Source: a virus. From it: 55,756 bases of DNA. The stretch covers positions 1 through 55,756 of IMG/VR virus record IMGVR_UViG_3300037882_000695; one strand, 5' to 3'. Below, piece after piece: positions 72 to 35,152 of the stretch. The notes under the pieces are model-generated. The model made no database searches and had not been told where the DNA came from. It was given only the letters and a program-made list of their open reading frames with translations. The position numbers and the translations under genes are program-made. Each line of letters opens with the position of its first letter. Position 1 is the stretch's first letter.

Positions 72-1181
72 TCACTTCACAAACGGCACCAACGGCCGCG
101 GTATCGGCTGTGGCGTGTAAAACTGATTCCCCTTGATCGTTACCGAGTACATCCCAACGCTTGGACCTGCCGTTGTCGTGATCGAATTAACCGCCGCTTG
201 CAGATCGTAACTCGGCGCAACCCTGACAACCGGAATCGAATTACTCACCAGCCCATTGCAGCCTGTGATCCTGATACACTGCGGCACACCACCGTCGAGC
301 GTGACAATACCCGCCTCTGCATCAGCGTCCCTGCCGCAATTCGTTTGGCAGTCCGTAATAGATACCAATTGCCCACGCCACGGATTGACAAGATTCGGCC
401 CGCTGATGTGTCGCACGATTGGCAGTCCACCGTTTTCGCCGCCGTATCGCGTCGTGTCCGTGACGAATGAGCCAGCGTTGTCCACCCAATAGCATTTGGC
501 GTTGCGTCCGTCGATCTGCGGTGGACGTGGCGTCATCACACTGCCAGTAATATTGAGCATCCCGTTCGGGTACAGGCTTTTCGCCCATTTCGTCCCATCA
601 CAGATTGTCGCCCCACGAAACAACACCACCGAGTTTCTGACTTCCGTGTAATCACATCGCGTCAACAGTCCATGCCCACCATCCCAGATGCAGTGATCCA
701 GAATCAGCGACGCGCTCATATGCAGGTCGCCCGTCGTTCCCTGTGCATAGACCGCCACGTCGGACCAGCCTTGAAACGTGCAATCTTTCACAGAAAGCAT
801 TGTCAGATCGACGTCCCCGTTCGCGAACACCAATTGCCGAGACCCCCCAAGGAAGTTCATTCCACGGATTCGATTGCGATAACACCCGCTCAATACCGTT
901 GGCGATGCCGGCACGAAAGTAAACGCGTCTGCCCCCGCAGTCTCCTGAATGACGACCGAGCCTTCGCCGACGACGCACGCGAACCCATTAAACACAATCG
1001 GCGCGGTGATTCGGTACTTGCCGGATGGAAAATAGACCGTTGGTTGACCACCTTGCATTGACCCGCCGGACGGTTGATTCGCTCGCAGTCCGGTCTTTGC
1101 CATGTCGACGGCGGACTGAATCGCAGCGGTATCGTCCGCAATGCCGTCCCCGATGACGCCGAAGTCTTTTACGTCAATCAC
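72..1181 (-). CDS. tailspike-like beta-helix protein (pectate lyase superfamily)
   Basis: A 369-aa protein. Residues 1-70 carry the signature of pectate-lyase-like right-handed beta-helix domains: DFGVIGDGIADDTAAIQ, then an alpha-helical turn, then a TVYFPSGKYRI strand. Many phage tailspikes and capsular depolymerases begin this way. The rest is consistent with stacked beta turns. No catalytic residues can be assigned by eye, so enzymatic activity is unproven; it may simply bind a surface glycan. Translation starts at GTG, which overlaps the TGA of the upstream fibre gene (GTGA), so the two are coupled. It is the last gene before the genome end. Role: host surface recognition or degradation. 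Confidence 0.8.
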   Translation of the reverse strand: MIDVKDFGVIGDGIADDTAAIQSAVDMAKTGLRANQPSGGSMQGGQPTVYFPSGKYRITAPIVFNGFACVVGEGSVVIQETAGADAFTFVPASPTVLSGCYRNRIRGMNFLGGSRQLVFANGDVDLTMLSVKDCTFQGWSDVAVYAQGTTGDLHMSASLILDHCIWDGGHGLLTRCDYTEVRNSVVLFRGATICDGTKWAKSLYPNGMLNITGSVMTPRPPQIDGRNAKCYWVDNAGSFVTDTTRYGGENGGLPIVRHISGPNLVNPWRGQLVSITDCQTNCGRDADAEAGIVTLDGGVPQCIRITGCNGLVSNSIPVVRVAPSYDLQAAVNSITTTAGPSVGMYSVTIKGNQFYTPQPIPRPLVPFVK

Positions 1182-2770
1182 GACGTTGCCCCCTTGATGA
1201 TGGCGAAGTTGATTACAATCGCGCCTGTTTCCGCCGTCGATGCGTGCTGGTTGTGAACCGTTATATCGAATGACCCAGCCGCAACCGCCGTCACTGCTAC
1301 GGATGTTTCCTTATTCGTCTGGCCAGACTTAATCGTCGGGATTACGGAGTCGTTTGCCCCGACAACCGTATTCGTCACCGTGAACGTGGCGCTCGCACCA
1401 GCTGCAAGGCTTGTCGTGTTTGTGGTGATAGCTCCAGTTGGCCTCGACAATGTGACGCCAGTTGTCCGATTCGTGGCCTGCGTAACCGTCCCGCCTGCTC
1501 CGGTGCCGTAGCCGAGCGTGGCCCCTGAGCGAATCAGCCTTAAATCACCGTTTCCATACACATACACCAGAGACGTTGCCCGGTTGCGAAACTCCGCCAG
1601 TGGAACTGTTGCAGACAGATCGGTATTACCGCCGCCTGTGTTGTGACGACCAAGGAACAAAATCGCCGGATTTGTCGTTGTGTCGACGCCCTTGGTCCCG
1701 AAAAATGAGATCGGGACACCCTCGACACCAGCCTCAATGGTCCCGTTAAACGTCGGGCTGAAAAAGTTCGCGTTTGACGTTCCGTTGTCCAGCGTTAACG
1801 TCGACCCTGAATCTGACACACCAAATGTCAGTAATCTCTCTGCTGTTGATGCCTGAGCGGTGACATTTGCTGTCAATGCGCCGAATCGGTCCACTTTGAA
1901 TACCGACGCAGCAGCAGCAGTCTGAAACTCGAGGAAGTTGCCTGTCGGGCTTGTGTCTGTCGCCCTAGTCGACTTAATCGCTGTGTCACCATTGGCAAGC
2001 TGATTGATAACAGCGTTTCCTGTCAATGCCGCCGAACCGTCGAAGTTATTGCCGTAGATTGCTCGTGCCGTTGCCAGCGATGTCGCTGTTCCCGCATTGC
2101 CAGATACGCTCGTTTGGTCGCCCGTGTTCGTTCCAGAGCTTGCACCAGAACACGTCCCGCCACCGATTACGATAGTCCCGCTGGCGTCCGGTAGCGTGAA
2201 CGTGCGATTTGTTCCAGCCGTGATACTGGCACAACTGAGCGTTGCCGTTTTCGTCGCGTCTGTCCCGTCGCCAATCTTAAGCGTGCCGTAGATGTGAGCG
2301 TTCGTTTGACCGTCCGAACCGATGACGGTTTTATTCGCACCCTCTGGCACAACCGCGTAACCGATCAGGATTTGCCGGTCATGATCGCCTGCCGTGATAT
2401 CCGCACCGACGATGACATTGCTGTCCTTGGTCACGACCCCACTGACGTTGTATCCGGCAACGACGTTCTTATCGCCACTGACAAGATCGGCACAGACCGT
2501 GTTTCCGAAAAGTTGATTGAAGCCGCCGATTGTGATTCCTGTGCCGATGTGCATCCCGACAGCGACGTTGTATGTTCCGCTCGTTGTTGCCGCGAGCCCG
2601 TCGTGAGCGACCGACAAAGAGTCCGTGTCAACAGCCAGTCCGTGCGATACAAGGATTTCCTGCGAGGTCGCATCAACACGTAATGCCGCAACACCACCGA
2701 GCGTGTCCGTTGTCGCGAACTCCGCTGGCTTCCCGTTTGCCCCAGTGCATAACGGTCGTCGAGTCGTCAT
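1178..2770 (-). CDS. tail fibre protein
   Basis: A 530-aa protein rich in Gly, Ser, Thr and Ala with short beta-prone repeats. It contains the TLPDASGTI segment common in phage tail-fibre shafts (about residues 192-200). The N-terminal segment GANGKPAE recurs as GSNGKPAE in the preceding 172-aa protein, suggesting a shared attachment module. Its start overlaps the end of that gene by 4 bp and its own end overlaps the tailspike start, so these are one translational unit. The C-terminal 90 residues form an all-beta domain that may be the receptor-binding tip. The family assignment rests on composition and context, not on a recognised catalytic motif. Confidence 0.7.
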   Translation of the reverse strand: MTTRRPLCTGANGKPAEFATTDTLGGVAALRVDATSQEILVSHGLAVDTDSLSVAHDGLAATTSGTYNVAVGMHIGTGITIGGFNQLFGNTVCADLVSGDKNVVAGYNVSGVVTKDSNVIVGADITAGDHDRQILIGYAVVPEGANKTVIGSDGQTNAHIYGTLKIGDGTDATKTATLSCASITAGTNRTFTLPDASGTIVIGGGTCSGASSGTNTGDQTSVSGNAGTATSLATARAIYGNNFDGSAALTGNAVINQLANGDTAIKSTRATDTSPTGNFLEFQTAAAASVFKVDRFGALTANVTAQASTAERLLTFGVSDSGSTLTLDNGTSNANFFSPTFNGTIEAGVEGVPISFFGTKGVDTTTNPAILFLGRHNTGGGNTDLSATVPLAEFRNRATSLVYVYGNGDLRLIRSGATLGYGTGAGGTVTQATNRTTGVTLSRPTGAITTNTTSLAAGASATFTVTNTVVGANDSVIPTIKSGQTNKETSVAVTAVAAGSFDITVHNQHASTAETGAIVINFAIIKGATS

Positions 2771-6153: not shown

Positions 6154-6849
6154 TCACTCCACCTTTGCCTGAGCCCCAACGAATTCGCCATCGGCCATCT
6201 TGACCACGAAAAACGGGTAAACGAATCGCCCGCTGTTGTTCAGTCGTACCAGTTCGTTCCATGTCGCCACGTCAATTTCACTGTCGGCAGGTCGCGTCTT
6301 GTCCATGTAGCAATAGACGTATTTCAGTTCGGCAGTTCCATCGCCGTGCTTTTGCTTGAACAGGCGGCACGGGTAGCACGTTGTTGAACCGACGACATAC
6401 ACCGTCTTTTGAGAAACCGGCGCTCGAACGACCTGCTGGAGTGAGGCAGCAGGAGAGGTTGTCGAACGAGCGCCGGGCGCGGCGGTTCTGTTGATTACGT
6501 ACTGTTCGCGGCCACACTTCGGGCAGTTGTGACTCACTGGGCCTTTTTGCGGATCGTGCCACCATTCGTGGTTGCAGCGTGGATTTGAGCACAGGTGCGA
6601 ATGCAGGTCTGATTGTTCTGGCTTGGATGATGGCTTCGATGGTGCTGATGGTTCAGAGATCAACGGGGCGCGAGGAATCGGGGCGCGGGGTCGGTCGTCT
6701 GCAAAGCACTGGGCGACACGAATACCGAGTAATACCCCTATCACCGCCAGTGACCACCAAATAGCTTTTGCGAAACGATGGTATCGCTCAAGCGCGGCGA
6801 GTCCGCGACGATCTTCGTCGAGCAATCTATCTCGCAACAGGTCGCTCAT
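6154..6849 (-). CDS. membrane-anchored zinc-ribbon / thioredoxin-like protein
   Basis: A 231-aa protein. The ATG at 6849 overlaps the stop of the upstream protease gene (ATGA). After a charged N-terminus, one membrane span lies at about residues 28-48 (AIWWSLAVIGVLLGIRVAQCF), then a Pro/Ser-rich linker. A zinc ribbon follows: CSNPRCNHEWW and CPKC. The C-terminal ~85 residues look like a glutaredoxin/thioredoxin fold, with strand VYVVGSTT, the redox motif CYPC, and FVYPFFVVKMADG as the cis-Pro region. Residues after the span would face one side of the membrane. Adjacent to a Cys protease and holin-like genes, it may break disulfides during lysis or mature the protease. The frame continues past its TGA (see 5920-6153). 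Confidence 0.65.
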   Translation of the reverse strand: MSDLLRDRLLDEDRRGLAALERYHRFAKAIWWSLAVIGVLLGIRVAQCFADDRPRAPIPRAPLISEPSAPSKPSSKPEQSDLHSHLCSNPRCNHEWWHDPQKGPVSHNCPKCGREQYVINRTAAPGARSTTSPAASLQQVVRAPVSQKTVYVVGSTTCYPCRLFKQKHGDGTAELKYVYCYMDKTRPADSEIDVATWNELVRLNNSGRFVYPFFVVKMADGEFVGAQAKVE

Positions 6850-8771
6850 TTCACCGTTCCTGAGCCATGTTGACCGACAGGAATTGCGTACACCTGATGA
6901 TATTTCATGGTTTCGCGGACATGCTCGTATCCGATCCATCCACAGCCGCGAACTCCGTGCTGTAGCCCCCAGTTCATAATCACCTTGCCCTGAATATCTC
7001 CCCTGCTGTTCAACCGCGAGTCGGACTGAGCGACCGCATGATTTCCCGGCCCCTGGTCAATTCCGAGAACGTCACCGTTCAACCGCTCAAAGTTCCGGCC
7101 GACCTGAACCGCGATGACGGTAAAAAACGGACCAGCCCACGCGGTAATCAGTTCATCCCACGAATGTATCAACAGCGGAGCGTCGACTTTGAACAACGCG
7201 GCTTCAGTGTCAAATCGTCGCGTGTCGTTGCGATAGATCAGATTCCACGGACAGGACACCAGTGACGGCAAACCATATTCCTGACCGACCTGAAACGCCC
7301 GAAACAGTTCGCTGCCCTGGTCTCTTCCGTTGTTCATCAAACTGTAGGCATATGACCCCGACCGCTTCGTGAGCTTCGTGTTCCCTCCAGCATAGGCAGC
7401 GCGCCACGCTGCATTGGCGAGAGCATAGCCATTACAATTATGAACTCCAACTCCCTCCACGACGTAGCTGTGGTCTTCTTCTACCTCAATATTGTAAACG
7501 ACGCCATTGAATGGTTCTGCCTCGATCTTGTCGACACGACGCCACATGACGGACTCGGTTTTCCTTGCTCGTGACTTCGCATCTGGATTTGACGGCCAAG
7601 CAACGATATACCGCAAATGTCGATGCTTTATTTTGTGCTTCGGATTAATCTTTACCTGAAGAGTCTCCACTGTTGGATTTTTTCCGATGGCATTCGCGAT
7701 GTCGTACATGTTCATTGCCAGTGCATGCGATACCGTCACGCCGCCACATCGCTCCGCCTCCCCTAATCCGTCTCCGGCCTGCCATCCGTTCAGCATCGCC
7801 GTCAAGAAATCGCGTGGTCCGCTTGAGATATCTGGATGCAGGCTTTTTATCGCCGACCCAGACCCGAATAGATTTTCGAATAGATGGCACCATCCACTGC
7901 CATAGACCTTCACGTCGCACGTTCGTTTTTTGCCACGATTCACGCAGACATTTGTCTTTACGCCAAACTCATTCATCCACAAATCACACAACTCTGCCAC
8001 CAGCGTGTCGACTTCATTTTCATTGAATGTGAATGTTATTTTTCCACAGGAAATCGAGCCCTCCGCAAGATACAGCCCGCAAATCCTGCCAAAAGATTCG
8101 TTCAATACAATAAGTTCTGGAACCGGAGTTCGACGAACTTCTGTCTGAGGCTTTCCGGGAAGACCACCGACTTTGCTACTTGCAACGTGAGCGTATGTGC
8201 GGCGCTGGATCGTGTGAGTCGTTTGTTCGAGATACTCCGCTGGAACGATTGATTCAACCAGTTCCGGCATATATCGAGGAATCGCTACCCAATCGTCATT
8301 TCGTAGGTCGATTGCCGCAACATATCCGCGATTTTCCGTGAGAAAAGGATGCTCTGCCGTGCATCGAATATGCCGATTGCCCCAGATGCAAACGCGAATC
8401 ACGTCTCCGCGATGGTCTTTTACCATCGTCCTCATGACTCGTTTTGTGCGACCCTCTGCCGTCAAAACACTATCAAGCAACCTGACATGCTCAATTGGTT
8501 TTTGCGACCCATCAGCCATACGGACGAGAGTTCCAGGTGGGAAGCACGAACCGTGTGACCCCTGATTCTCTTCCCCCTCGCCCGGAAACAGCGTCTCAGC
8601 CTTCCATGTTCGAGCAGCAATCGCGGTTCGGCATTGGTCCAACGTCCACACCGGAAACGCTGACGCAAACGCGACGAGTCCGCTATCGGCTGGCGGTTTC
8701 GACGGCATTGACCCGCAGCGACGGATGACGCCGAATTGGTCCTCGATTTCGTCGGGTTGGTAGTCGCTCAT
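6846..8771 (-). CDS. papain-like (C1A) cysteine protease interrupted by an intein
   Basis: The 641-aa precursor starts at ATG 8771, which overlaps the preceding stop (TGATG). Residues 1-75 and 446-641 form the host protein (271 aa after splicing); residues 76-445 are an intein. The joined exteins read NQGSHGS-CNGYALANA, matching the papain active-site block with Q70 (oxyanion) six residues before the nucleophile C446, exactly as Q19-C25 in papain. The active-site His is H578 (GNHAV) and the Asn is N600 (IMNWG). The intein sits immediately before the catalytic Cys, so unspliced precursor cannot be an active protease. No signal peptide is seen. No muramidase or amidase was recognised elsewhere, and the gene neighbours holin-like proteins, so it may act in lysis; a virion maturation role is the alternative. 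Confidence 0.85.
   Translation of the reverse strand: MSDYQPDEIEDQFGVIRRCGSMPSKPPADSGLVAFASAFPVWTLDQCRTAIAARTWKAETLFPGEGEENQGSHGSCFPPGTLVRMADGSQKPIEHVRLLDSVLTAEGRTKRVMRTMVKDHRGDVIRVCIWGNRHIRCTAEHPFLTENRGYVAAIDLRNDDWVAIPRYMPELVESIVPAEYLEQTTHTIQRRTYAHVASSKVGGLPGKPQTEVRRTPVPELIVLNESFGRICGLYLAEGSISCGKITFTFNENEVDTLVAELCDLWMNEFGVKTNVCVNRGKKRTCDVKVYGSGWCHLFENLFGSGSAIKSLHPDISSGPRDFLTAMLNGWQAGDGLGEAERCGGVTVSHALAMNMYDIANAIGKNPTVETLQVKINPKHKIKHRHLRYIVAWPSNPDAKSRARKTESVMWRRVDKIEAEPFNGVVYNIEVEEDHSYVVEGVGVHNCNGYALANAAWRAAYAGGNTKLTKRSGSYAYSLMNNGRDQGSELFRAFQVGQEYGLPSLVSCPWNLIYRNDTRRFDTEAALFKVDAPLLIHSWDELITAWAGPFFTVIAVQVGRNFERLNGDVLGIDQGPGNHAVAQSDSRLNSRGDIQGKVIMNWGLQHGVRGCGWIGYEHVRETMKYHQVYAIPVGQHGSGTVK
7437..8546 (-). 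mobile_element. intein with LAGLIDADG homing endonuclease
   Basis: Encodes residues 76-445 of the protease precursor (370 aa). Block A: CFPPGTLVRMADGSQKPI, beginning with the nucleophile Cys. Block B: TAEHPF with the conserved Thr and His. Two LAGLIDADG helices: GLYLAEGS (about 232-239) and LNGWQAGDG (about 327-335), both keeping an acidic residue, so the homing endonuclease is probably active. Blocks F/G: NGVVYNIEVEEDHSYVVEG and VGVHN, followed by Cys as the +1 residue. All residues needed for class 1 splicing are present. Confidence 0.93.
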
Positions 8772-9190
8772 CAAAGTACCTCGGCGAGATAGAACACGAT
8801 TCCTTGGCAGTACGGTTCACCATCCTCAAGAATCGTAAACGTCGAATGAGGAATGCCAGTTTCATATTCCCACGTCGCTACAGAGTCCTTTCGATCCCAG
8901 TAAATGCGAATCAACTGAGCTTTGTTGAGCAGGTCCTTGAACCCGCAATACTCGCACTCACAATCGCGGTGATTTGGAAGTAACTTACCATTGACGATTG
9001 GAATCGTCCCGCCGCCGTAGCAGCCCCATTCGTCTTCAATTGCCCCTCGAAACTCGCAGAGGTCATCTGAGGCACCATACACGACTACTAGCCCATTTTC
9101 TTTTGCTAGCTTTTCTTCGGCGCGGTCCAGTTCATCACCAATTTCGCGACCGTCAAGAAGCTTCGCGAACTGTTCTCGTGTCATCGCCAT
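8771..9190 (-). CDS. conserved phage protein of unknown function
   Basis: A 139-aa protein beginning MAMTREQFAKLLDGREIGDE. It has a CECEYCGF cysteine cluster in the middle (about residues 75-83) and a conserved-looking C-terminal half (WEYETGIPHSTFTILEDGEPYCQGIVF). Proteins of this design are common in phage genomes and have no assigned role that I know of. The Cys cluster could bind a metal. Its stop overlaps the start of the protease gene, so the two are co-translated. Confidence 0.7.
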   Translation of the reverse strand: MAMTREQFAKLLDGREIGDELDRAEEKLAKENGLVVVYGASDDLCEFRGAIEDEWGCYGGGTIPIVNGKLLPNHRDCECEYCGFKDLLNKAQLIRIYWDRKDSVATWEYETGIPHSTFTILEDGEPYCQGIVFYLAEVL

Positions 9191-28027: not shown

Positions 28028-28047
28028 TGTTCGAGTCCTTTCGAGTT

Positions 28048-28161
28048 AGTTAAACCCACTCAGCCCATACGACGTTGATTGGAATATCAAAAACGCTTAT
28101 TGCGTAGTTGTCGTCTCCACCGGCAACACACCGGCGAAGTCTGGGCTGAGTGGGGTTAGTT
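28048..28161. repeat. 20-bp inverted repeat pair upstream of csrA
   Basis: CCCACTCAGCCC at 28055-28066 and its exact reverse complement at 28143-28154; with flanks, 17 of 20 bases match. The arms lie 76 bp apart. One arm lies in the csrA upstream region and the other inside the 3' end of the HTH gene. It may be a paired operator for that HTH protein, or the arms of a large stem in the shared transcript. No other copy was noticed in the window. Confidence 0.55.
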
Positions 28162-28762: not shown

Positions 28763-30313
28763 CTACTCCTGCCAATTTCGCCAGATGACGCCGTGTTCGA
28801 CGAGCACAGTTTCTCCGTCTTCGCAGTGCCAATCGTCCGCACGCAGTAGATATGCCCCTTTGCTCGTTCTCTGGGCCAGAGCTGCACCGCTACGCATCGT
28901 CCAATAAACGATGTCGGCACATGCCGCACACATGCCGGTTGGGCCACATTCAACGCGACAATCGTCATTCGTAACCGCCGCGATTCCACTCCAACCGGTC
29001 GCGGATGCTGCTCCCCTCGAACCAGTCGCGGACGCTGCTCCCCTCTCACCGGTCGCGGACGCTGCTCCACTCTCACCGGTCGCGGATGCTGCTCCCCTCG
29101 AACCGGTCGCGGATGCTGCACCACTCGAACCAGTCGCGGATGCTGCTCCCCTCGAACCAGTCGCGGACGCTGCTCCACTCGAACCGGTCGCGGACGCTGC
29201 TCCACTCGAACCAGTCGCGGACGCTGCTCCACTCTCACCTGTCGCGGACGCTGCTCCACTCTCACCGGTCGCGGACGCTGCTCCACTCGAACCAGTCGCG
29301 GATGCTGCTCCCCTCAAACCAGTCGCGGACGCTGCTCCCCTCTCACCGGTCGCGGATGCTGCTCCCCTCGAACCGGTCGCGGATGCTGCACCACTTGAAC
29401 CAGTCGCGGACGCTGCTCCCCTCGAACCGGTCGCGGATGCTGCACCACTCTCACCAGTCGCGGACGCTGCTCCACTCCAACCGGTCGCGGACGCTGCTCC
29501 ACTCTCACCGGTCGCGGACGCTGCTCCACTCTCACCGGTCGCGAATGCTGCTCCACTCTCACCGGTCGCGGATGCTGCACCACTTGATGCGTGCTGAGTC
29601 CATGCGATTTGCCCCTTGAGAATCATCAGGTGACATTCGAGATATGTACCACTCGCTACGATGGTTGCTCGTTTTGTTTTTGCTTTTCCGCCAAGGTCGA
29701 TGACTTCAGCAGGGTCAGCAGCAAACACCAGCCAATGGGCGGAGTAATCTGGAGTTTTCCCATCACCAACCGCCAATCCCCACGGCCAACCATGAAGACC
29801 TCCGCCGCATTCTAGTGCCGGATTCCAATCAGGTGCCTCGACAGATTCGCCGACAGTGAGCGGCCACTTGAATCCGCCGTAGCTGGTGCCGTCTTTATTG
29901 ACGCACTTCAACAACAGGACTTTGTCGCCGTCGTGAGTCCATTCGTGCGGTTTTTTAATTTGCTGTTCACTCATCGGCGCGGACCTTCGGCTATAGGTGT
30001 GTGTTGGTTGCTTCAAAAGAGCGGGCGATTCCGTTCGCCCTGTCGTGCCGGTTCCTGGTTCGTCCGTGATTCGATGTTTCATCAGGTCGTCGAGTCGCTG
30101 GGGCCACTGCACTGAATACGATGTTGGGTTCTCAGTCAGCATCGATGTGCCAAGCTCAATTCGCGACAACTGACACGTCACAGGCCCAATCGCTGTGGCA
30201 ATGTCGACGAAAAACACGGCATTCCCCTCGATTGGATACAACTCTCCGTCAACGTAAAGTGCTTCGTTGCCGTCGATGTCAATAACACCAACGGCTTTTC
30301 GTGGGTCAATCAT
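28763..30313 (-). CDS. repeat protein with 22 x 9-residue GAASATG units
   Basis: A 516-aa reading frame. The ATG at 30313 has GAAAGG upstream and overlaps the preceding stop. An internal ATG at 29974 (MSEQQIKKPHEW) is where the known phage family of this type normally begins: a ~95-residue domain (GGFKWPLTVGESVEAPDW, HGWPWGLAVGDGKT), then tandem GAASATGxx repeats, then a C-terminal domain with CGPTGMCAACAD. The 113 residues before that ATG look like an unrelated small domain fused in frame. Repeats vary only at the last two positions (ES, SS, SR, ER, WS, LR), so they should stack as a regular left- or right-handed coil. Function unknown. Confidence 0.7.
   Translation of the reverse strand: MIDPRKAVGVIDIDGNEALYVDGELYPIEGNAVFFVDIATAIGPVTCQLSRIELGTSMLTENPTSYSVQWPQRLDDLMKHRITDEPGTGTTGRTESPALLKQPTHTYSRRSAPMSEQQIKKPHEWTHDGDKVLLLKCVNKDGTSYGGFKWPLTVGESVEAPDWNPALECGGGLHGWPWGLAVGDGKTPDYSAHWLVFAADPAEVIDLGGKAKTKRATIVASGTYLECHLMILKGQIAWTQHASSGAASATGESGAAFATGESGAASATGESGAASATGWSGAASATGESGAASATGSRGAASATGSSGAASATGSRGAASATGERGAASATGLRGAASATGSSGAASATGESGAASATGESGAASATGSSGAASATGSSGAASATGSRGAASATGSSGAASATGSRGAASATGESGAASATGERGAASATGSRGAASATGWSGIAAVTNDDCRVECGPTGMCAACADIVYWTMRSGAALAQRTSKGAYLLRADDWHCEDGETVLVEHGVIWRNWQE
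28988..29581 (-). repeat. 27-bp tandem repeat array, 22 copies
   Basis: About 22 head-to-tail copies of a 27-bp unit encoding GAASATG plus two variable residues. The 21-bp core is nearly invariant, with silent changes mostly at one or two sites. This permits slippage and copy-number change without loss of frame. The complementary strand is also open in this stretch, a by-product of the repeat. Confidence 0.92.
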
Positions 30314-30627
30314 TTCGAAACCTTTCGATAAACCGTCGCACTGCTTCCCGTCACCGTGCATGTGCGTGCGGGTAATTCTTCGATCAGACCGTCACGAACA
30401 AGCTCGTGAAACCGTTTTCGATATGACTCCGCCAACTTGCCGTAGTAGTCGCTGCACAACGTCGCCACTTCCATCGCAGTCAGTTGTTTGTCCGCCAGCA
30501 TGAACATGCACCGTTGCTGCAACATGCCGAGCTTGACCCGCGTTGAATCGGCTGACTCGTGCGAGGTCGCTTTGTCCGTGCGGCGTGATAGGGTTGGCTG
30601 TGGCGTGAAAAGGTCTAATTGAACCAT
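30310..30627 (-). CDS. small winged-helix-like protein
   Basis: A 105-aa protein. MVQLDLFTPQP at the start is followed by a C-terminal winged-helix-like domain: KLGMLQQRCMFMLADKQLTAMEVATLC, then SYRKRFHELVRDGLIEEL, and a wing (TCTVTGSSATVYRKV). GGAGG lies 11 bases before the ATG. Its stop overlaps the start of the repeat-protein gene. Probably a DNA-binding protein. Confidence 0.65.
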   Translation of the reverse strand: MVQLDLFTPQPTLSRRTDKATSHESADSTRVKLGMLQQRCMFMLADKQLTAMEVATLCSDYYGKLAESYRKRFHELVRDGLIEELPARTCTVTGSSATVYRKVSK

Positions 30628-31063: not shown

Positions 31064-31328
31064 TCGGGAAGGGTTCGGGAAGGGTTGTGCCAGCAGGTGT
31101 AAACGCGGGTGACTACGGCGCGTCGTGGGTTGTCTGGTGTTGTCAACCGGATAGTCTAACTACACCTAGACTTGCGGCGTTTTTATGGCATTGTTGCCAA
31201 CCGTGCATAAGTCCTGTCGTGGTGGTCTTTTGCTTGACTGGGGGTCAAGAGGTCGCAGGTTCAAATCCTGTCAGCCCGATTAGAGTTACGACGATTTGGA
31301 GTAGTGGTCAGGTGTAAACCTGGTGACT
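31064..31328. promoter_or_regulatory. attP: attP region with arm-type repeats
   Basis: A noncoding stretch between the excisionase-like gene and the integrase. CAGGTGTAAAC plus GGTGACT occurs at 31094-31114 and again at 31309-31328, one on each side of the tRNA-derived core, as expected for integrase arm-binding sites. An 11-bp tandem repeat (TCGGGAAGGGT) lies at 31064-31085. The left arm is about 120 bp and the right arm about 30 bp from the core. Confidence 0.75.
31233..31279 (+). other. attP core: 3' half of tRNA-Pro(GGG)
   Basis: Starts with the anticodon stem-loop: CTTGA, loop CTGGGGG (anticodon GGG), TCAAG. The variable loop AGGTC, T-arm GCAGG-TTCAAAT-CCTGT, acceptor strand CAGCCCG and discriminator A follow. 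The 5' half (D arm and 5' acceptor strand) is absent, so this is not a working tRNA but the identity block that restores the host gene after integration. Confidence 0.9.
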
Positions 31329-31332
31329 GTGA

Positions 31333-32445
31333 TTACCCGAGAAGCCGCGACATGATCGATGTTGCGGCCACCTGATGACACTCCAACACATGAGAGTAGA
31401 TATCCATCGTGGTGGAAACCTTGGCGTGTCCAAGCTGTTTCGACACGACTGTTGGTGGAATTCCCGCACCGAGAGCCAGCGTCGCGTAGGTGTGGCGAGT
31501 GTGATGGAATCCACGATGTTCAATGGCGAGTTGAACCAAAAGAGGATCCCACGTCTTCACGCGAAATGTGCCGCGACTCTGGACGCCCTTGCCGCGTTCT
31601 CCCGGATAAACCAGTTTCGAACTGGCGTTTCCTTCGGCCATCAGGATCCCGCGATGTTGCCGTAATGCGTCAATCGTGCTGGCCGTCAGATCGATGGTTC
31701 TGATCGAGGCTTTAGTCTTGGGTTTCGCCAGTGTGCTTCTGCCCGAAATTTCAACGGCTTGCTGATCGATTCGTATCTGCGACGCCTTCCAGTCAATCCG
31801 ATCCCATTCCAGACCAAATATTTCTCCCTGCCGCATTCCCGCTGCGATTCCTAACTGGATGGCAATGTGATGACGCTGACCGACTGTCTCACTCAGAAGC
31901 AATTTCGATTCAGCCAGCGTGAACGGGAATATCGGTTCCGTTTCGTGCGTCGGCTTCGCGGCGTGCTCGAAAGGATCCGTAGAAATCATTCTCAGCCTGA
32001 ACGCGTGACCGACTGCTGCGCGGAGAACGGTGAAAGCATTCTGGCGAGTTCTGGATCCAACCTCATCGCGAGCCATACCCGCCGTCAGGTGTTGAATGTG
32101 AATCGGTTCAAATGTCTTGAGAAGAATGGATCCCACTCGCGGGATGATGTGCTTTTCGCACGCAATCCGATAGCTTTCCTTGGTGTTGTCGGACATTTCC
32201 GAAACAACATCCCGAAGCCATGTTTGCAAAAACGCTGCGATGGTAAATCGCTGTGGAGAGCGTATGAGGGCGACTTCCGATTCAGCCCTCAGCGTTTGAA
32301 GAATTGCGACCGCATCGGCGTGCTTCCATGCCGTGCGGGTTATTCGCTTCAGCTCAGATCCGATCTTGACCGTCACTGAAATTCGGTAGCGACCTGATTT
32401 CTCCTTTGAAATCGATCCCTCACCGTTCGCCCGTTTCTTCGCCAT
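31333..32445 (-). CDS. int: tyrosine-family site-specific integrase
   Basis: A 370-aa protein; ATG at 32445 (MAKKRANGEGSI) has AAGGA upstream, better than an in-frame codon 12 residues earlier. N-terminal arm-binding strands (SGRYRISVTVKI) and a SAM-like core-binding domain precede the catalytic domain with GMRQGEIFGLEWDRI (Arg), FHHTRHTYATLAL (His-x-x-Arg), KQLGHAKVSTTMDIYSH (His and the Tyr nucleophile). It recombines attP (56 bp downstream of its stop) with the host tRNA-Pro gene. It overlaps the upstream small gene by 26 bp. Confidence 0.93.
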   Translation of the reverse strand: MAKKRANGEGSISKEKSGRYRISVTVKIGSELKRITRTAWKHADAVAILQTLRAESEVALIRSPQRFTIAAFLQTWLRDVVSEMSDNTKESYRIACEKHIIPRVGSILLKTFEPIHIQHLTAGMARDEVGSRTRQNAFTVLRAAVGHAFRLRMISTDPFEHAAKPTHETEPIFPFTLAESKLLLSETVGQRHHIAIQLGIAAGMRQGEIFGLEWDRIDWKASQIRIDQQAVEISGRSTLAKPKTKASIRTIDLTASTIDALRQHRGILMAEGNASSKLVYPGERGKGVQSRGTFRVKTWDPLLVQLAIEHRGFHHTRHTYATLALGAGIPPTVVSKQLGHAKVSTTMDIYSHVLECHQVAATSIMSRLLG

Positions 32446-32623
32446 GCCCCATATCCTTCGCAACTGTAGCCATTGCGACAACGGAAAGATTCCGGGCGGC
32501 TTCGTAAAGTTCCGGGAACAGGTCGCGGCGTTCCTTGATCTGCTCTGCCAGGATGTTCGCCGCTCGCATCTGACGTGTCAGCCAATCCCTATGGCTTTCT
32601 CTTGGCTGGCCGTTTGTCTCCAT
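32420..32623 (-). CDS. 67-aa hypothetical protein
   Basis: A helical protein (METNGQPRESHRDWLTRQMRA...) that overlaps the integrase start by 26 bp and the upstream HTH-like gene by 35 bp. No domain is seen. Its position suggests a regulator or co-factor of integration, translated before the integrase. Confidence 0.45.
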   Translation of the reverse strand: METNGQPRESHRDWLTRQMRAANILAEQIKERRDLFPELYEAARNLSVVAMATVAKDMGHGEETGER

Positions 32624-32858: not shown

Positions 32859-32889
32859 AAATTGTGGGTGAACGAATTGAAATCACCGA

Positions 32890-32918
32890 AAGCTCACGAT
32901 TCGCAGTCGTGAGCTTTT
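32890..32918. terminator. hairpin terminator upstream of the integrase operon
   Basis: An 11-bp perfect stem (AAAGCTCACGA / TCGTGAGCTTT) with a 7-nt loop, followed on the plus strand by one more T. It sits between the integrase operon start and the plus-strand regulator, so it could stop leftward transcription coming from further right before it enters the int operon. The T tract is short. Confidence 0.6.
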
Positions 32919-32984
32919 GTGGCTCTTTGAGGTCAAACCGCGATCACTTCATTTGATTGCCTCCCCTCAATTTTGAATTCTGCG

Positions 32985-33335
32985 TTAATCCGTCGATCTC
33001 TCTTGCAAGTCCGCGCAGGACTGTGCGATATTCTTGACGCCGGGTAGCGTCGTGCAGGTCGCTTGTTGATTAGTAGTCTCCGAGCTTGATCTGCTGCTTT
33101 GCAAGGGTCCAATCTTGCGTAGCCGCTGCCCGGTTTGTTTTTTGTAGCCGAAACCACCACAGTTCGGCAACTCCATTCGGCGAATAATTTGCCAACCGGA
33201 TTGCAATTGTGCAAGTGTCTTTTGATGGATGGAATGTCTATCTTCAGCGTTTTTGTCTGACGTGATCCACTCAAGTCGCCCGTTTCGCGTTGCCGATACG
33301 CTGCAAGGAATATTGCCACTTTTCGGAAAACACCC
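32985..33335 (-). pseudogene. possible decayed coding region
   Basis: A minus-strand frame is open for about 117 codons without a good start (internal RLEWITSDKNAEDRHSIHQ and QSGWQIIRRMELPNCGGFGY look genuine). A second frame just below, ending at 32943, also looks coding. This suggests an inactivated gene. Between 32919 and 33358 nothing else is seen except a short inverted repeat TTGCA-ATTG-TGCAA at 33201-33214, which might be an operator for the plus-strand regulator. Confidence 0.35.
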
Positions 33336-33358
33336 CTAAAACACGCAAGGATTATTGC

Positions 33359-33865
33359 ATGAATCGGCAGTATGTGGCCGCAACCGGCAATATACATGGC
33401 ATGTTCACTGCGGTGAATCGACCGTCCAGAGCGGCAATTTCGGCAGGAATCACCCGTGAAAATATTTTGGGAAAAACTATCTGGGACTTCGGTGACGACG
33501 TTCTCGAGCAGGAGATTCGGGACAATTTCGCGCGGTGCCTGATGGACGGTTCCGAGGTGCACTACAAGACCAGCAGCCACATTCAGGGCGTTACCGAGCA
33601 CTGGGACTGTCGGATTATGCCAGCGCCGGAAACTGCCGTGCTGATCGTCGCCGAGGAGTTTTTTGACGACACTCCCGACATGACCGCCGAGGATGTCCAG
33701 ATCATTTCCTATCTCGACCAGGATCTCACTGTCCACCAGATCGGGCTGGCGATGCACATTTGCGACACGACCGCCGCAAGCAAGCTGTACCGCCTGCGCA
33801 CAAAATGCGGCGTGCAGACGAATCACGGCCTGCTGTCGTGGGCCGCTAGACGTGGTGTGATCTGA
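33359..33865 (+). CDS. PAS-like / LuxR-type HTH regulator
   Basis: A 168-aa protein on the plus strand; the ATG at 33359 has AAGGA 7 bases upstream, better than the in-frame start 23 codons earlier. Residues 1-100 fit a PAS fold: FTAVNRPSRAAISAGIT, ENILGKTIWDFGDDVLEQEI, then HWDCRIMPAPETAVLIVAEEF. Residues 110-168 form a LuxR-type HTH: MTAEDVQIISYLDQDLTVHQI, DTTAASKLYRLRTKCGV, and NHGLLSWAARRGVI. It lies in the lysogeny region facing away from int. It may sense a small molecule or redox signal and act instead of a CI repressor. Confidence 0.7.
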   Translation: MNRQYVAATGNIHGMFTAVNRPSRAAISAGITRENILGKTIWDFGDDVLEQEIRDNFARCLMDGSEVHYKTSSHIQGVTEHWDCRIMPAPETAVLIVAEEFFDDTPDMTAEDVQIISYLDQDLTVHQIGLAMHICDTTAASKLYRLRTKCGVQTNHGLLSWAARRGVI

Positions 33866-34045
33866 CATTGCGCCCGGCTCATTCCGGCAGTGACCACGAT
33901 CAATGGCAGGCTGGATTCCTCTACAGCCCGGCGAGTCACCTGTTGATTGTCGCGAATCCATGGCGACGGACGAGACAATACCGCCGTCACGAGTCGCGGT
34001 CAACGGAATGTTTGCCGAAAATGTTTTGTGTTAGCGCGAATGCGT

Positions 34046-34075
34046 TTGAAATATTCCGGTGAGCGGCGGTATGAT
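34046..34075 (+). promoter_or_regulatory. sigma-70-type promoter of the structured RNA
   Basis: -35 TTGAAA at 34046-34051 and -10 TATGAT at 34070-34075, separated by 18 bp. The expected transcription start at about 34082 coincides with the first base pair of the first long helix of the structured RNA (34083). No reading frame starts there. Confidence 0.6.
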
Positions 34076-34082
34076 TTCGCTT

Positions 34083-34526
34083 GTCCCGACCAAGACGCAT
34101 TGCTAAATTTTGGATCTCCGCTCGTCATGAGCATTTGAACCTCGCAGTATTCTCCTGGTCGGGACGCTGCGGGGTTCTTCTTTTGGATAACACGCGGTTC
34201 GGTGGCTGACACGGTTGGAGCAATCCCCACCAGTCACCGACCGCGTTTCTAAAGTAGAACCCCGCGATTGGATGCTCCGTGTTGGACGGATTCAGCGGGT
34301 TCGACTCCCGCACCATTCAATCCTGTGGGTGTGGGGCTGTGCGGGCCTCGAGGTGAGCAGGTTTCAAAGTCACCGAGAATCGCACCGAGCGCCGGGACGT
34401 TCCTGTCTGGATCTCGAGATAATCCCTCAGATCAGCCTTCATGGTTAAACTCATGAGGGGGTCTGGGTGTGTGCCTCGAGCACCGAACTTTCCTGTCTGT
34501 TTGCAATACATTGCCAAAGGCAATGT
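34083..34526 (+). ncRNA. large structured RNA with T-loop arm (unknown class)
   Basis: Helix A: GTCCCGACCA (34083-34092) with TGGTCGGGAC (34156-34165). Helix B: GCGGGGTTCT (34169-34178) with AGAACCCCGC (34256-34265), extended by four more pairs past one mismatch. Inside B, helix C pairs 34192-34208 with 34231-34246, 16 bp with one bulge, and is topped by a GGA-GCAA-TCC GNRA hairpin. Helix D, 9 bp (34266-34274 with 34314-34322), encloses a small hairpin and a T-arm. A last 8-bp hairpin with loop AAA lies at 34508-34526. Two wobbles are G-U only if transcribed on the plus strand. No long frame is coding here. Could be a phage ncRNA or a long structured leader of the gene at 34538. The 3' end is uncertain. 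Confidence 0.6.
34266..34322 (+). ncRNA. tRNA-like three-way domain within the structured RNA
   Basis: A 9-bp closing stem, a 5-bp hairpin (TCCGT/ACGGA), and a perfect T-arm: GCGGG-TTCGACT-CCCGC, with the canonical T-loop. It lacks a D arm and a 7-nt anticodon loop, and the closing stem is separated from the T-stem by two bases, so it is not a tRNA. It may mimic the elbow of tRNA or tmRNA. Confidence 0.55.
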
Positions 34527-34537
34527 GAGCAGTCCTT

Positions 34538-34804
34538 GTGTACTGGATTCGCCGCCAGAAAGCACCAGAAATCAGATACCACGTTCTCGACATCAACCCG
34601 ATGAAGGAAGTGCTGCGGACTGAAGGAAATATCGATGCGAATGGACTTAAGAAAGCGTTGCATATCTGCCGTGGTCACTTCGCGCATTACGAGAATGGAC
34701 TGTTCGGACGTGGTGAAGCATGCACCGTTTGGAAGCCGTCGCACGTTCGCGGTTCCGTTGAGCATGGCATCGTTGACAAGGATTACCGGATTAAGATGGG
34801 ATAG
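34538..34804 (+). pseudogene. truncated conserved phage protein
   Basis: An 88-aa plus-strand frame from GTG 34538. RYHVLDINPMKEVLRTEG, then GLKKALHICRGHFAHYENGL, FGR, and WKPSHVRGSVEHGIVDKDY match the C-terminal part of a conserved phage protein family whose members are much longer. No ribosome-binding site or upstream coding is seen. Most likely the remaining 3' end of a gene whose front was lost during rearrangement next to the structured RNA; it may still be translated from GTG. Confidence 0.5.
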
Positions 34805-34900: not shown

Positions 34901-35152
34901 ATGAAACTTCAATGGAACACGCCAATGCCGAACGCCAGCCTTTTGAAAGCTGCTGGCACATCGCTCAACTCGCATCCATGGCGCGGTTTTTCCGCTGAGT
35001 CTGTGCGGATTCGGTTGTCTGCGATCAAGCATGGCAACGAATGGACGATCACTGCAGAAACGATTGACACTACCGAGCCAATTCCAGGATTTCGCGCATA
35101 CGACAGAATCGACCTGAATGACGTTGTTCCATCATCCGCCGTCGAGGTGTAG
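34901..35152 (+). CDS. small plus-strand protein under operator control
   Basis: An 83-aa protein with AAAGGA 5 bases before the ATG. It is beta-rich (KLQWNTPMPNASLLKAAGTS, ESVRIRLSAIKHGNEWTITAE). No domain is recognised. It has its own operator-like sites and is oriented opposite to the surrounding operons, so it may be expressed in the lysogen or act as an antirepressor-type switch protein. Confidence 0.6.
   Translation: MKLQWNTPMPNASLLKAAGTSLNSHPWRGFSAESVRIRLSAIKHGNEWTITAETIDTTEPIPGFRAYDRIDLNDVVPSSAVEV

Follow-up and report, generated by a model that had tools for sequence, protein, structure and literature searches.

A candidate structured noncoding RNA with a tRNA-like module near the integration genes of a temperate phage

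Described RNAs used for comparison

The noncoding RNA YrlA, a bacterial Y RNA, harbors, within a larger transcript, a domain that resembles tRNA in its acceptor, D and T arms but has no anticodon arm (PMC8394870; PMC7790460), and this module is acted on by the tRNA enzymes DusA and TruB (PMC8394870). The acceptor, D and T plan is common, at the level of the predicted fold, to YrlA and to a module within a ~440 nt stretch of the IMG/VR record IMGVR_UViG_3300037882_000695, which was examined over its full length of 55,756 bases (the window). YrlA RNAs are, however, 90–150 nt in size and possess a basal stem for the Rsr protein that is encoded nearby, whereas the RNA predicted here is considerably longer and lacks an Rfam match. 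No Rsr/TROVE gene could be identified in the phage record, while genomes of the host genus yielded only weak TROVE matches of 40–70 residues, and in the predicted folds no helix encloses the module as an Rsr-binding basal stem would. As the phage lacks a TROVE gene and the module a basal stem, the RNA is not considered to be a Y RNA.

A relationship to tmRNA (RF00023) was likewise rejected. The D-like piece and T-arm align to this model (E-value: 9e-6 in a 1-kb search), but with only 19.7 bits over 28 nt against a cut-off of 47; the acceptor is unaligned, neither a tag ORF nor pseudoknots are present and ARAGORN calls no tmRNA. A whole tRNA was also rejected, as a cloverleaf with an anticodon arm is absent.

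The original prediction likened the stretch to the ornate RNAs that are often found near tRNAs. The RNAs GOLLD, of which the linker can hold tRNAs (PMC12286853), ROOL and OLE are likewise large structured phage or bacterial RNAs of unknown function. The RNA considered here is, however, shorter, no tRNA island occurs near it, and GOLLD, ROOL and OLE remained unmatched in Rfam even at E-values up to 10. The wider covariance-model comparison that had been proposed was run, with GOLLD, ROOL, OLE, HEARO and tmRNA all unmatched at their thresholds. Rfam 15 gave no match to the stretch at curated thresholds, raiA falling below its threshold, and relaxed thresholds returned nothing past the T-arm.

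Small structured immunity RNAs are also derived from phage lysogeny regions, as exemplified by the P4 CI and P1 C4 RNAs. The candidate RNA described here is similarly structured in its predicted fold and located in a lysogeny region, but shares no sequence or Rfam match with them.

The phage, its probable host and the promoter region

The window encodes integrase, terminase, portal, protease, capsid and RecT proteins, by which it is assigned to a tailed temperate phage. Adjoining the tyrosine integrase gene (31333–32481, minus strand) is a 47-nt sequence (31233–31279, plus strand) identical to the 3′ part of tRNA-Pro(GGG) genes in several Schlesneria MAGs, which also occurs in actinobacterial and other planctomycete genomes. 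This identity places the attP core here and not at the RNA stretch and, together with the gene content, points to a Schlesneria-like planctomycete as the likely host. The stretch as an attachment-site relic was rejected, given the location of attP; when the tRNA-like module was compared with the host tRNA 3′ end, as for a tRNA fragment left at an attachment site, the T-arm alone matched.

The RNA stretch lies ~2 kb from the integrase gene and in the same region, between a regulator gene and a small ORF. The upstream gene (33290–33865, plus strand) encodes a protein with a PAS domain and a C-terminal sigma/LuxR-like HTH. Downstream, an ORF of 88 aa with good coding signal (34538–34804, plus strand) matches only phrog_20769, in its C-terminal part (residues 232–315 of 318), and appears to be what is left of a truncated gene, immediately 3′ of the RNA; the N-terminal part of this gene was not found upstream, nor is the remainder present in the window. 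The RNA stretch as a protein-coding remnant of phrog_20769 was rejected, as the gene piece begins 3′ of the RNA. A further ORF of 83 aa (34901–35152, plus strand) has a good Shine-Dalgarno sequence, with two direct repeats (ACAA..TTTTTGTAC) ahead of it.

Several additional elements can be observed elsewhere in the window. A second noncoding structured element of the same region as the RNA stretch (33038–33137, plus strand), for which no Rfam match was found, comprises a three-way junction with an 11-bp closing helix (-50.1 kcal/mol, z -5.76, against -32.7 kcal/mol on the minus strand) followed by TTTGTTTTTTG, and by its predicted fold could represent a small RNA or an attenuator, located 5′ of the PAS regulator gene. 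A perfect 15-bp hairpin (AAAGCTCACGA..TCGTGAGCTTTT, 32888–32922), a likely terminator, is located between an excisionase-like ORF and the PAS gene. The most extreme fold of the genome in a 120-nt scan (28041–28160, minus strand; z -7.3) contains a perfect 13-bp helix across the terminal part of an HTH gene and the intergenic space that precedes a CsrA-like gene, and might form a translational switch for the CsrA homolog. Among the proteins, one of 642 aa (6846–8774, minus strand) shows intein splicing/Hint domain matches, while another (28763–30361, minus strand) carries ~20 GAASATGxS repeats related to tail-fibre repeats and has a relative with ATAGDGG repeats in contig L002.

A sigma-70-like promoter, TTGAAA-18-TATGAT, had been predicted immediately upstream of the stretch and is present at 34046–34075 (plus strand) as a consensus match only, at 10/12 positions. 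The start point, placed 7–8 nt past it at 34082–34083, does coincide with the opening bases of the first helix, GTCCCGACCA (34083) pairing with TGGTCGGGAC (34165). The -10 element is covered by a 16-nt box, CGGCGGTATGATTTCG (34064–34079, plus strand), of which the only other exact copy in the window, the inverted CGGCGGTATTGTCTCG (33971–33986, minus strand), lies 93 bases upstream over an opposed promoter, TTGACC-17-TATTGT. The recurrence of the box in inverted orientation suggests that the two constitute a co-regulated divergent promoter pair.

An unusually stable, noncoding stretch with a rare tRNA-like module

All six frames of the stretch lack coding signal (-0.06 to -0.41 bits/codon; genes score +0.04 to +0.33), unlike the two downstream ORFs (34538 and 34901), in agreement with the earlier observation that it contains no convincing coding frame. 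The plus-strand fold of 34082–34530 (449 nt) has a free energy of -190.1 kcal/mol (z -5.28), with none of 100 shuffles as good. The minus strand reaches -173.1 kcal/mol (z -4.45), so that the plus-strand specificity originally proposed is real as a preference, but mild. In the 120-nt scan of the whole genome only one of 2782 windows is more extreme than 34161–34280 (plus strand), while at the 440-nt scale the lowest plus-strand mean is held jointly by 34081 and 32801, both on the plus strand. The z-score alone is nevertheless no proof of a structured RNA, as coding genes of this phage also yield windows down to ~z -5.7; strongly folding windows were furthermore found within genes of a related phage.

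The nested helices, GNRA-capped hairpin, T-arm and final 8-bp hairpin of the original prediction were all located where it had placed them, and are here grouped into five domains on the plus strand. Domain I (34083–34165; -30.9 kcal/mol, z -3.97) is a hairpin closed by the perfect 10-bp helix at the predicted start point. Domain II (34169–34265; -55.8 kcal/mol, z -7.04, 0/200 shuffles) is a long hairpin of 10+4+7+9 bp, of which the outer 10+4 bp helix pairs 34169–34183 with 34251–34265 and encloses the 7+9 bp helix, interrupted by one bulge, and a GNRA hairpin with a GCAA tetraloop at the tip (GGA-GCAA-TCC, 34217–34226). Domains IV and V are less certain. The former (34323–34507; z -3.73) contains a hairpin (34413–34480) closed by CTCGAG/CTCGAG and three CTCGAG palindromes (34347, 34413 and 34475), while the latter (34508–34526) is the 8-bp hairpin ACATTGCC-AAA-GGCAATGT, which has no U-run and is as such not a classical terminator.

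Domain III (34266–34322) is, in the predicted fold, a tRNA-like module of 57 nt without an anticodon arm, 5′-GATTGGATG-C-TCCGT-GTTGG-ACGGA-TTCA-GCGGG-TTCGACT-CCCGC-AC-CATTCAATC-3′. Its acceptor-like helix of 9 bp (34266–34274/34314–34322) encloses a D-like arm with UUGG in the loop (34276–34290) and the T-arm GCGGG-TTCGACT-CCCGC (34295–34311), the loop of which has every consensus base. The perfect T-arm noted previously is thus present, but is more aptly viewed as one arm of a mini-tRNA module with acceptor, D and T parts. No unpaired bases separate domains II and III, the latter starting at the base right after the former, so that their helices can stack. The module has a two-base bulge between T-stem and acceptor and lacks a 3′ CCA. 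Chance alone would produce a T-arm ~1.5 times per window. The whole 57-nt motif of closing helix, D-like arm and T-arm, which occurs once in the real window, was found nine times in 6000 whole-window shuffles, i.e. 0.0015 expected per window of such composition, a value that is a guide and not a formal p-value since the motif was defined post hoc. The minimum free energy (MFE) fold of the full-length transcript does not include the module, but forcing it costs only 0.8 kcal/mol (2.7 in ensemble energy) in a calculation that leaves out tertiary elbow contacts, and most shorter, 3′-truncated folds do contain it. The module may form an elbow.

Interpretation, alternatives and related phage elements

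Taken together, the stretch is probably a transcribed structured RNA. In its fuller form, to which we give about equal weight for and against, the proposal is that the lysogeny region of this temperate planctomycete phage expresses, from a dedicated promoter, a trans-acting plus-strand RNA of ~440 nt with two 5′ hairpins and a tRNA-like module. Transcription would start at ~34082, and the 5′ half would fold into a pair of stable hairpins, of which the second stacks coaxially on the module. By analogy with YrlA, domain III may then serve as a tRNA mimic that engages tRNA-binding factors of the host, while the hairpins would carry out the regulation of the phage. This reading is supported by the z-scores of the 449-nt fold and of domain II and the lack of coding signal, by the coincidence of the promoter start with the first helix and the 16-nt box shared by the divergent promoters, and by the rarity of the module, its YrlA-like topology and the occurrence of anticodon-less elements in unrelated phage contigs (see below). 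It is weakened by the single sequence available, the omission of the module from the full-transcript MFE, the strong folding of coding genes, the lack of a terminator, the two-base bulge and the missing 3′ CCA.

Homologs were sought by DNA comparison against phages, plasmids, nine planctomycete genomes (Schlesneria-type), 170 family genomes and 34 related phage records, which gave only tRNA T-arms or chance-length matches. A single-sequence covariance model of domains II–III (R1) recovered the window alone from 392 phylum, 170 order and 15 genus planctomycete genomes and 37 other virus records, in multi-genome runs with strict filters that can miss weak relatives. With the integrase as bait three distant phages were retrieved, and with the terminase 34, but none of the neighbor proteins led to a homologous locus. 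The closest phages have just ~60% of the terminase in common with this one, which makes turnover of the lysogeny region probable. Antisense targets were limited to 12–14-nt matches, at chance level. The proposal of a lysogeny-region noncoding RNA, possibly new, therefore stands as regards its noncoding nature, promoter, proximity to the integrase gene and lack of an Rfam family, but no homologue was found, with 38 whole virus records and several hundred planctomycete genomes among the sequences covered.

Such an orphan sequence, with a gene fragment immediately downstream and strong local folds elsewhere in the phage, might also have no function and fold well by chance, as the remains of a tRNA gene in decay or of recombination. 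We consider this somewhat unlikely: the 21-nt T-arm stretch also occurs in a planctomycete tRNA-Phe, but in searches of planctomycete genome DNA host tRNA matches stop at the T-arm, and decay would not keep helices of 10, 10+4, 7+9, 9 and 5 bp intact, nor the promoter in register with them.

The absence of a terminator between 34526 and the next ORF, which starts at 34538, 12 nt past the last hairpin, would suit a long structured cis-regulatory 5′ leader, the folding or processing of which sets the expression of the ORFs at 34538 and 34901, the second of these with its good Shine-Dalgarno sequence. This arrangement appears unlikely, as the 34538 ORF resembles a truncated gene piece without a Shine-Dalgarno sequence, the 34901 ORF has operator-like repeats of its own, and 440 nt with a tRNA-like module would be unusual for a leader.

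RNase P matures the small immunity RNAs of some phages, including the P4 CI RNA, and minihelices of acceptor and T-arm are its minimal substrates. Cleavage of the module by host RNase P at 34265/34266, freeing the 5′ hairpins as a variant of the trans-acting RNA, would accord with this minihelix plan and with a +1 G paired to C, but is improbable, as domain II abuts the cut site, leaving the leader base-paired rather than single-stranded, no RCCA follows the acceptor, and the 2-nt bulge separates it from the T-stem.

Viral contigs were scanned by D-loop/T-loop spacing pattern and then by model and structural scan. In the resulting 119 loci, a sample selected on the motif itself, 20 elements of acceptor and T-arm without an anticodon arm and without an ARAGORN call were found besides that of the window, against none in twice as much shuffled sequence, while 425 kb of viral DNA not selected on the motif held no element outside a true tRNA. 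Rfam gave no call at these loci. The elements occur in unrelated phage contigs, mostly outside long ORFs and several in noncoding gaps of at least 0.6 kb; true minihelices of 12–15 bp are found in L144, L120/L129/L187, L118/L142 and L106, and arrayed elements in L213 and L135. Unannotated T-arm-bearing elements or arrays without an anticodon arm can be observed at L213:2160–2540, L135:1440–1645, L144:98–162, L120:605–670, L118:1305–1375 and L215:5490–5660. Some may be degenerate tRNAs, and as no alignment ties them to the RNA of the window they are a lead and not a family. A ~640-nt noncoding stretch in the related phage G177 (L236 ~985–1620, minus strand; terminase ~60% identical), upstream of a small ORF and adjoining a primase-like gene, also carries a perfect T-arm (TGCGG-TTCGAAT-CCGCA) and has no Rfam match; its fold is no better than shuffles (z 0.2).

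We tentatively raise, as a rather unlikely idea, that noncoding phage transcripts of an uncatalogued kind incorporate a tRNA mimic of acceptor, D-like loop and T-arm that lacks the anticodon arm. The RNA of the window would be an ornate case, with simpler or arrayed forms lying unannotated between the genes of other phages (L144, L120/L129/L187, L118/L142, L135, L198 and L213). If real, the RNA would be a structured phage RNA outside all Rfam families, from planctomycete phages, in which regulatory RNAs have hardly been studied, and would indicate that phages employ a tRNA mimic that does not decode. Recurrence of the mini-tRNA in other phages would make the use of such mimics directly testable; they could, for instance, offer host RNA enzymes a handle or act as decoys against tRNA-cutting defences.
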